DNA of 64,000 nucleotides from the NCBI GenBank assembly GCA_947649645.1, contig CANSSP010000003.1, forward strand, positions 124,001 through 188,000, in the 5' to 3' direction. The notes below the pieces were generated by a model. It had not been told where the DNA came from. It saw nothing but the letters and a program-made list of their open reading frames with translations, and did no database searches. Source of the stretch: an uncultured Roseburia sp. GTDB taxonomy: Bacteria > Bacillota > Clostridia > Lachnospirales > Lachnospiraceae. This document shows positions 20,436 through 43,499 of this stretch, one piece after another; position 1 is the first letter of the stretch, and each line of letters starts with the position of its first letter. The position numbers were made by a program, and so were the translations under genes.

Positions 20436-20481
20436 GAAAAAACGCACTCAAAAATCCCTCTACGGAATCTTCGAATGCGTT
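20436..20481 (-). terminator. Terminator of micro-gene copy 1
   Basis: On the minus strand AACGCATTC pairs with GAGTGCGTT (one G-T), with an inner AAGATTCC/GGGATTTTT stem, followed by TTTTTT. Its GTGCGTTTTTT end resembles the ATGCGTTTTTT end of the copy 2 terminator. Confidence 0.82.
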
Positions 20482-20525
20482 CCTCGCATAACTTACACAC
20501 CGATAAATATTTCACGACCATCGGC

Positions 20526-20639
20526 TTACAGATCCAGATATGAATTGTATGTCCCAAAGTTAAGGCTTGACATTGTCGCCATACCCGCCGCGATCATTTC
20601 CATATTCTCTTCAAAATATACTTTAAACTTTTTTAACAT
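20526..20639 (-). CDS. Micro-protein, copy 1 of a two-member family (37 aa)
   Basis: Short frame too small for normal calling. AAGGAGGT ends 6 bases before the ATG. The peptide begins MLKKFKVYFEEN, has a small hydrophobic centre (MIAAGMATMSS) and ends YNSYLDL. It aligns with the 34-residue product at 43328: shared MLKK, aromatic-F, EN, GMA, LN and a C-terminal Y-x-x-Y-[LM]-D-[LI]. Upstream DNA and terminator are shared too, so this is a complete independent transcription unit. No family is recognised. Possible roles are a signalling-peptide precursor (charged head, weak hydrophobic core, conserved tail), a small membrane-active protein or a small regulator. Coding status is well supported by the paralogue. 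Confidence 0.8.
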   Translation of the reverse strand: MLKKFKVYFEENMEMIAAGMATMSSLNFGTYNSYLDL

Positions 20640-20640
20640 C

Positions 20641-20756
20641 CTGTTACCTCCTTATATTGTGACTATTTTGATCTTCCTGTCAGCGCTGTTCCATCTGACA
20701 GGTACTATCATATCGCAAAAAAAGGCACTGTATCAGATATAATATTAGCATAAAAA
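20641..20756 (-). promoter_or_regulatory. Conserved upstream region of micro-gene copy 1
   Basis: Reading the minus strand, TGCTAATATTATATCTGATA starts at 20750, a TATGAT or offset -10 follows, and the leader begins about TGTCAGATGGAACA at 20700. Compared with copy 2 the first 20 bases match at 19 positions, and the distance to TGTCAG is exactly 50 bases in both. CCTGTCAG (20702-20695) and CTGACAGG (20683-20676) form a perfect 8-pair hairpin at the transcript's 5' end. No good -35 is present, which suggests an activator binding the TGCTAATATT box. Confidence 0.75.
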
Positions 20757-20844
20757 CAGTTAATATTGACTTTTTAAATTGTCACATCTCTTTTTCCTCC
20801 GCAGTACACTTCTGGCCGTAAGTTCCAGAAGCCTGCACAGCAAA

Positions 20845-43017: not shown

Positions 43018-43208
43018 TATTATCTTGTCCATTTTGCCTCTGTTCTTTGTATGATTTGACTAATTTCACCAAAGTCGCTTCTCAGATTCGTGCATATTTT
43101 TTCATTCAGACGCCTTCTCCATCCATTATTGTTAACAAATGTTGCATTTTTATTATCTTTCACTGTCTCCGATTTACCAGGCGCCTCGAAAAAGTCAATA
43201 TCAACCAT

Positions 43209-43327
43209 TTTTTTGCTAATATTGTATCTGATATTTCCTTGTATTTCCAAGTATTATAATACATGTCAGATGGAACACATCAGACAGGGAAACACAATAT
43301 CAACAGAAATATAAGGAGGTAATTATT
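43209..43327 (+). promoter_or_regulatory. Conserved upstream region of micro-gene copy 2
   Basis: TGCTAATATTGTATCTGATA at 43214, a perfect TATAAT at 43255-43260, leader TGTCAGATGGAACA from 43264 and GACAGG after it. The layout matches copy 1 gaplessly over the first 60 bases. TGTCaGATG and CATCaGACA can form a hairpin with a GAACA loop. AAGGAGGT ends 7 bases before the ATG. There is no -35 at the right distance, so an activator site is likely. Confidence 0.75.
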
Positions 43328-43432
43328 ATGTTGAAAAAATGCAGAACATTCTTTATGGAAAATATAACCGCTGCTGCGATCGGTATGGCGTGCCTTAATG
43401 GTGCCGACTACCGTCCTTACATGGATATTTAA
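43328..43432 (+). CDS. Micro-protein, copy 2 of a two-member family (34 aa)
   Basis: Starts MLKKCRTFFMEN, has a small hydrophobic centre (ITAAAIGMACLN) and ends YRPYMDI. Homologous to the 37-residue product at 20526 (see that entry). Unlike copy 1 it has two cysteines. Complete unit: conserved promoter region, strong ribosome site and a strong terminator 22 bases after the stop. Sits between the GH130 operon (divergent) and the DUF2752/LacI genes. No family recognised. Confidence 0.8.
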   Translation: MLKKCRTFFMENITAAAIGMACLNGADYRPYMDI

Positions 43433-43453: not shown

Positions 43454-43499
43454 AAAAAACGCATCCGACACCGGTTTCCCGGTGTCGGATGCGTTTTTT
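43454..43499 (+). terminator. Terminator of micro-gene copy 2
   Basis: AAAAAACGCATCCGACACCGG pairs with its exact complement around TTTC and ends in TTTTTT on the plus strand; the A-rich left flank makes it work in both directions. Confidence 0.93.

Follow-up and report, generated by a model that had tools for sequence, protein, structure and literature searches.

Small proteins under dedicated regulators

Small proteins placed under a dedicated regulator are already known in kind, among them SgrT, VcdP and the ANR proteins. The SgrR-SgrS/SgrT system of E. coli joins a dedicated transcription factor to a protein of about 40 aa and serves in sugar stress. AraC-type activators of class II bind two direct repeats, the nearer of which abuts the -35 element. 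In layouts of the Rgg-SHP or RopB-LCP type, a regulator gene lies beside a fast-diverging gene for a short peptide that is under its activation. In Vibrio cholerae, a published account of the VcdRP system describes VcdP, a 29-aa small protein that tunes citrate synthase, an enzyme of central carbon metabolism (PMC8672173), and another describes ANR proteins (Aar, Rnr) as small proteins activated by an AraC-family regulator (PMC4038620). In B. subtilis, according to a third report, unphosphorylated Crh, a relative of HPr, inhibits the methylglyoxal synthase MgsA (PMC9631020).

The system considered here is a family of very small proteins of Lachnospiraceae. Its main features are a shared promoter and an AraC-family regulator, neither of which figured in the preliminary description of the locus. 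It resembles SgrR-SgrS/SgrT in having an apparently dedicated transcription factor, a short gene whose protein measures about 40 aa and a possible sugar-stress theme, but its regulator is of the AraC/cupin type and an RNA part with conserved base-pairing was not seen. It resembles VcdP in the very small size of the protein; a likeness in carbon role is a proposal on the Lachnospiraceae side. The ANR proteins are directed at virulence regulators in Gram-negative pathogens, whereas here, in Lachnospiraceae, strong sites head mainly the peptide gene, and no Pfam or NCBIfam model reached its cut-off with the peptides scanned. No description of the family, its promoter or its AraC partner was found in the family libraries or the open-access literature searched. 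That a transcription factor is apparently kept mainly for a protein of 30-60 residues strongly suggests that small proteins have a function in abundant gut bacteria that has gone unrecognised. Many small proteins of the microbiome are without an assigned function, and one regulator gene, a few peptide genes and a sharp promoter motif together offer a testable handle.

Two peptide genes in the window

The window, that is, the whole 64-kb stretch of DNA analysed (C3:124001-188000 of a 3.07-Mb genome), holds two short genes, each supported by its open reading frame (ORF) and by the family alignment, and copy 2 also by a structure model. Copy 1, of 37 codons (MLKKFKVYFEENMEMIAAGMATMSSLNFGTYNSYLDL), occupies 20526..20639 on the minus strand, behind the ribosome site TAAGGAGGTAA at 20644..20654 (-) and ahead of a terminator-like stem-loop that a terminator scan placed at 20438..20484 (-). 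Copy 2, of 34 codons (MLKKCRTFFMENITAAAIGMACLNGADYRPYMDI), lies at 43328..43432 on the plus strand, with the ribosome site AAGGAGG at 43313..43319 (+) and a terminator stem-loop at 43458..43499 (+), formed by AACGCATCCGACACCGG..CCGGTGTCGGATGCGTT and followed by a T-run; of this stem the scan gave the inner part only. Both ribosome sites are of the strong TAAGGAGG type and share an identical core. The preliminary description had given each peptide frame a strong ribosome site and its own terminator, and frames, sites and terminator-like stems after each stop were indeed found. Each gene stands alone between its own promoter and its own terminator.

Pairwise alignment of the two peptides gives 16 invariant columns. 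Their upstream DNA is more similar than the ORFs themselves (AAAAAGTCAATATYAAC...TGCTAATATTRTATCTGATA...TATnATAnTACnTGTCAGATGGAACA...AATATAAGGAGGTAA), and this similarity spans about 90 bp, from AAAAAGTCAATAT to the presumed transcript start. Searches of the whole window genome gave copies 1 and 2 alone, with no third copy. They belong to one small-protein family, probably as paralogues. Copy 2 is modelled as a single helix over residues 2-24 that is followed by a short tail (pLDDT 89); no secretion feature was noticed.

The peptide family and selection on it

A profile of the two copies found relatives at E <= 1e-4 in 10 of the 61 other genomes of the genus; since these relatives also have the same promoter, the likeness of the pair exceeds chance. 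Members within the genus follow a common plan of the kind M[LF]xKxKxY[FY]xENIDxIAxGxAxxNGxDxxPY, and the core across the whole family is Y-x-x-EN-x3-I-x2-G-x-A-x2-NG. The shared plan first proposed for the pair therefore holds in its invariant columns, but the Y-x-x-Y-[LM]-D-[LI] at its C-terminus is peculiar to the window pair and differs from the family core. The 58 members collected are 28-67 aa long. Long-form members and those of other genera have 6-27% identity to window copy 2, with one outlier at 32%, and with identities so low among distant members a single shared target is not assured. At least 12 residues stand ahead of the short-form start in 26 of the 53 aligned members. When genome contigs were scanned with the two-row peptide alignment no relative was returned, the query being too short, and the promoter pattern was therefore used instead; the promoter search finds family members that sequence search misses.

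Selection was assessed in peptide pairs with at least 60% identity and at least five differences, which share members and are hence not independent, and which the window pair is too diverged to join. In all 26 such pairs pN was lower than pS (pooled 0.14 vs 0.51), and dN/dS was 0.04-0.38 in the 20 computable pairs, the other six being saturated. Values in this range in every computable pair argue that the peptides are translated, and judged from these substitutions purifying selection on the protein appears strong. The preliminary description had taken the peptides to be real and of an unrecognised family, and would have given this up if conserved-frame homologues were lacking or if synonymous and non-synonymous changes were equal; such homologues exist, in the genus and in other Lachnospiraceae, and synonymous change predominates.

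For the peptides tested there was no convincing match in Pfam, NCBIfam, PHROGs, PADLOC or PDB, the best hits all being sub-threshold: E 0.2 in the PDB profile search and E 0.087 in PHROGs (four peptides), while the two window peptides had no PADLOC match. Pfam Vts1 (19.1 bits against a cut-off of 27) and NCBIfam TtrA (E 0.0018; 16 bits against a cut-off of 1750), each hit by a single peptide, were dismissed as chance. With regard to AgrD, copy 1 has no Cys, although it does have Ser, and NCBIfam gave no match. The family is distributed through Lachnospiraceae and has gone unlabelled so far.

A conserved promoter

The promoter, of about 90 bp, is the best-conserved feature of the system. It comprises direct repeats, GTCAATATYGMC and a second of GTCAA/GCTAA type, 21 or 22 bp apart; the nearer repeat abuts a poor -35 element, and the -10 element follows at a fixed distance. 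Fourteen copies from the genus were aligned, and 13 of these sites form a gapless alignment of 95 bp; in G060, where two copies lie in tandem, the second has kept only the distal part of the promoter. Both window promoters were matched by a model (R1) in whose training set they were included, at 74 bits for copy 1 (20685..20775, -) and 78 bits for copy 2 (43189..43280, +). Upstream of copy 1, the distal half-site GTCAATATTAAC, a putative site of the regulator, lies at 20759..20770 (-); the putative proximal half-site GCTAATATTATATCTGATA, spaced 21 bp from its distal partner and directly adjoining the -35 position, at 20731..20749 (-); and the -10 element TATGAT at 20707..20712 (-). The corresponding elements of copy 2 are the putative half-sites GTCAATATCAAC (distal, 43194..43205, +) and GCTAATATTGTATCTGATA (proximal, 43215..43233, +) and the -10 element TATTAT (43252..43257, +). 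Control by a LytTR regulator, suggested by the 21-bp repeats, was dropped because the divergent gene is of AraC type.

The presumed transcripts start with a hairpin, in the window of the TGTCAG...CTGACA type, which is perhaps an mRNA stabiliser. It is predicted at 20678..20700 (-) for copy 1 (-8.1 kcal/mol) and at 43264..43286 (+) for copy 2 (-8.5 kcal/mol). In all, 8 of the 13 genus leaders, both window copies included, have leader hairpins of -6 to -10.4 kcal/mol, with differing stem sequences; these energies stand without a shuffle control.

Distribution and targets of the promoter

In the genus, a promoter sequence model found 18 strong sites (E <= 1.1e-6; 13 of them from the training set) in 13 of 62 genomes. 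All head a peptide of the family except one, in G033, where the ORF is gone. After these the scan yielded nothing better than 1.7e-3 (at most 20 bits). Seventeen weaker matches (L056-L072) were checked for the GTCAATAT core, which four had, and five more were read; the best among those read (G024) heads an MFS sugar-transporter gene.

A pattern scan over one genome per species, for 84,980 species in a set that overlaps the genus genomes, gave 67 stretches with 68 sites. Those in an archaeon, a cyanobacterium and a Bacteroidales record (L147, L170, L179) were judged to be chance and removed before counting; the remaining 65 sites come from records named as Lachnospiraceae or its genera, Clostridiales, Eubacterium or plain 'bacterium'. 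By reading, 51 of the 65 head a peptide of the family plan; in L172 and L183 the peptide lies about 290 bases further on, and L131 has a hydrophobic variant. Among the 14 sites without a recognisable peptide, two have lost the ORF, two are cut off by the end of the stretch and ten have other or unclear targets: GH3 enzymes (two), methylglyoxal synthase (two), an HPr-like protein, a secreted protein, a 59-aa protein (two) and two that are unclear. The same scan of viral contigs returned three stretches, none followed by a peptide with a ribosome site, and these too were judged chance. When 397 genomes of the bacterial family were scanned with a model of 66 sites, 21 sites at E <= 4e-8 were found in 16 genomes; 18 head a family-type peptide, and the rest comprise a remnant (G089), another ORF of 70 aa (G259) and a site with nothing recognisable after it (G197:C59). 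At E <= 0.01, eight named genomes had one or two sites each; in the scan of the genus, G050 had four. The genomes searched carry 1-4 strong sites, nearly all of them ahead of peptides.

Methylglyoxal synthase stands under the promoter in two genomes, its MGS domain being confirmed by Pfam in one of them, and each genome also has a family-type peptide under the promoter, of a variant with a strongly hydrophobic centre. In Hespellia, the sole site found in the genome heads an HPr-like protein that contains no histidine and has the motif KSIMG. Both targets recall Crh and the methylglyoxal bypass of B. subtilis; the peptides themselves gave no match to Pfam HPr in the five scanned.

Sites of the TCAATATCGACCTA type were also seen at genes that were named by eye as GH3 beta-glucosidases or GPH-type transporters (L232, L234, L235, L237, L241, L242, L247, L060, L243, L315). 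Several of the GH3/GPH loci with weaker promoter matches have divergent AraC genes of their own, which supports AraC-type recognition of this class of motif.

The AraC-family regulator

All-against-all comparison of the neighbours at 116 loci and in the window gave one cluster that stood out from the rest, that of an AraC-family protein about 285 aa long, present at 65 loci (a number that includes the sugar-gene loci), mostly divergent and close to the site. Among the 65 pattern sites, 29 have the regulator divergently within 700 bp, 27 of these within 200 bp; it lies downstream at one, within 2 kb in another layout at three, and is absent from the fetched stretch at 32. At L167, at least, it is missing only because the stretch was cut, as L111, from the same place, shows. 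Eighteen further genomes were searched, 16 of them chosen for absence of the regulator from the fetched stretch, and 17 encode a homologue at E <= 2.3e-109, the next AraC protein scoring 2.9e-70 or weaker; in the remaining one, G476, the genome search found no homologue. Within the genus, regulator orthologue and promoter occur in the same 13 of 62 genomes. The orthologue has at least 68% identity in 12 of these and is a 71-residue fragment at a contig end (77%) in G049; among the other 49 genomes G052 alone reaches E <= 1e-60, with 37% identity, a cut-off that misses fragments. In the window genome the regulator gene lies at C3:72016-72876. No site is nearby, and the distances to the peptide genes are about 72 and 94 kb, so that this regulator would act in trans.

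The regulator carries an N-terminal AraC_binding/cupin domain and a C-terminal HTH_18 domain, the latter scoring 69.4-77.2 bits (cut-off 33.6) in five regulators, that of the window genome included; AlphaFold likewise models two domains (pLDDT 85). Its place in the AraC/XylS family is indicated by this helix-turn-helix score, above the Pfam cut-off, and by predicted sites that are direct repeats about 21 bp apart beside the -35 of the target, as is generally held for the family. With the AraC/XylS sugar regulators it has in common the cupin and HTH_18 domains, the direct-repeat sites and relatives that lie divergent to GH3/GPH genes with a similar motif. It differs in belonging to a separate group and in usually having a small protein as its target instead of an enzyme or transporter. 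In a tree, 40 promoter-linked regulators fall on one side and 13 other AraC proteins, mostly beside sugar genes and mostly drawn through the similar motif, on the other (support 91/40; 92% of bootstrap trees), which is moderate support for a clade. The promoter-linked proteins have H88 (37 of 40), C108 (38 of 40) and C125 (36 of 40), each found in 0 of the 13 comparison proteins, and in the 17 regulators from the further genomes the counts are 17, 17 and 16. That these His and Cys residues are conserved next to the cupin histidines suggests a signal based on a thiol or a metal. Two regulators marked '1 TAA / 1 TAG' had been read as pseudogenes, a reading that was discarded as no stop falls within the aligned part.

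Proposed function and alternatives

The explanation that we favour, with more confidence than doubt, is that the peptide is an intracellular small protein which is made under a dedicated AraC activator and adjusts carbon flux through a protein target. The regulator, with its cupin sensor and HTH_18 domain, would sense an intracellular small molecule and bind the two GTCAA-type half-sites, 21-22 bp apart and just upstream of the weak -35. Once bound it would activate, rather than repress, the peptide mRNA, as class II activators of AraC type do. The peptide, predicted to be one helix with a short tail, would then bind a protein target in the cell, probably a sugar-metabolism enzyme or transporter, and through this binding adjust carbon flux after the fashion of SgrT or VcdP. 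With so few strong sites outside peptide genes, the circuit should have the peptide as its output, and the peptide is probably the working output of the regulator; an AraC/cupin partner together with a promoter that heads almost only peptides points to an intracellular effector.

A different use of the same parts is feedback, in which AraC activates the small protein and the small protein binds and damps AraC, the relation that ANR proteins have to AggR in enteric bacteria. For Gram-negatives, three reports describe small proteins that AraC proteins activate and that in turn inhibit AraC proteins (PMC4038620, PMC5570504, PMC10148876), and in the present system the regulator gene often neighbours the peptide gene and the two occur together. 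The scarcity of strong targets besides the peptide makes this unlikely, since a regulator would achieve nothing by producing only its own inhibitor, though weak sites at other genes are possible. A pure feedback inhibitor would need a separate output, as would a pheromone, and none is regularly seen. The latter bears on the suggestion of the preliminary description that the peptides could be precursors of a signal. In such a model they would be exported, processed and sensed by AraC or another receptor as in Rgg-SHP or RopB-LCP. A short, fast-diverging peptide gene next to a regulator that probably activates it, with several paralogues possible per genome, would suit such a signal, but the recurrent partner is an AraC protein with a cupin sensor rather than an RRNPP regulator. 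A reading by eye of the other recurrent neighbours, in which a broad ABC-ATPase cluster (27 of the 116 loci and the window) and a MATE-like one (20) kept these general labels, brought up no recognisable pair of peptide exporter and peptidase and no RRNPP-type receptor. Moreover, the N-terminal extensions found in about half of the aligned members are unlike a conserved secretion leader. A secreted signal is thus less likely than an intracellular small protein, and the precursor model is given little credence.

Equally little is given to a membrane-active peptide or small toxin. An amphipathic helix is seen in many members, the best 18-residue window beating its own shuffles in 9 of the 14 peptides examined (p < 0.05), and the variant of the two MgsA genomes is hydrophobic at its centre; window copy 2, however, is not significantly amphipathic (p = 0.34), a long hydrophobic stretch is absent by eye from the other peptides read, and PADLOC matched neither window peptide. 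It is also improbable that a regulatory RNA with a 5' hairpin is the effector and the peptide secondary to it, as in the dual-function SgrS. Start hairpins of -6 kcal/mol or better in most genus leaders and the retention of the promoter despite ORF loss in G033/L134 and L138 would agree with this, but the selection acts strongly on the protein, the promoter-ORF gap and the sequence after the stop are not conserved by eye, and no Rfam family was found at the peptide loci in the window.

Within the favoured explanation of an intracellular carbon-flux effector, methylglyoxal synthase and the HPr-like protein as co-targets point to the methylglyoxal bypass, a step that, coming from 3 of 65 sites, is suggestive only. 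A more specific and speculative version would be a two-part stress circuit: glycolytic overflow, perhaps methylglyoxal, would be detected by a thiol- or metal-sensing AraC, and a helical small protein would throttle a step of sugar catabolism, with a Crh-like HPr in place of the peptide in Hespellia and MgsA co-regulated in two genomes. In this detailed form the idea is doubtful.

Variation among loci

Peptide genes are duplicated, in tandem or nearby, at several loci, with two each in L106/L015 (G060), L102/L123 (G050) and L140 and three in L214 (G325). At L104/L134 (G033), L138 and L226 (G089) the promoter is retained and the peptide ORF lost or truncated. The genome of L138 encodes the regulator, and as G033 and L138 keep both promoter and regulator without an intact ORF, the peptide can evidently be lost. 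At L229 (70 aa), L166 (a secreted protein) and L173/L181 (59 aa), promoter and clade regulator are accompanied by another protein downstream, possibly a replaced output. The regulator gene of the window genome (G000:C3:72016-72876) immediately follows a gene that by eye is glycosyltransferase-like and with which it perhaps forms one operon, and in Hespellia (L162:4907-8000) the regulator gene is found between the HPr-like target and apparent pyruvate formate-lyase genes, likewise named by eye.
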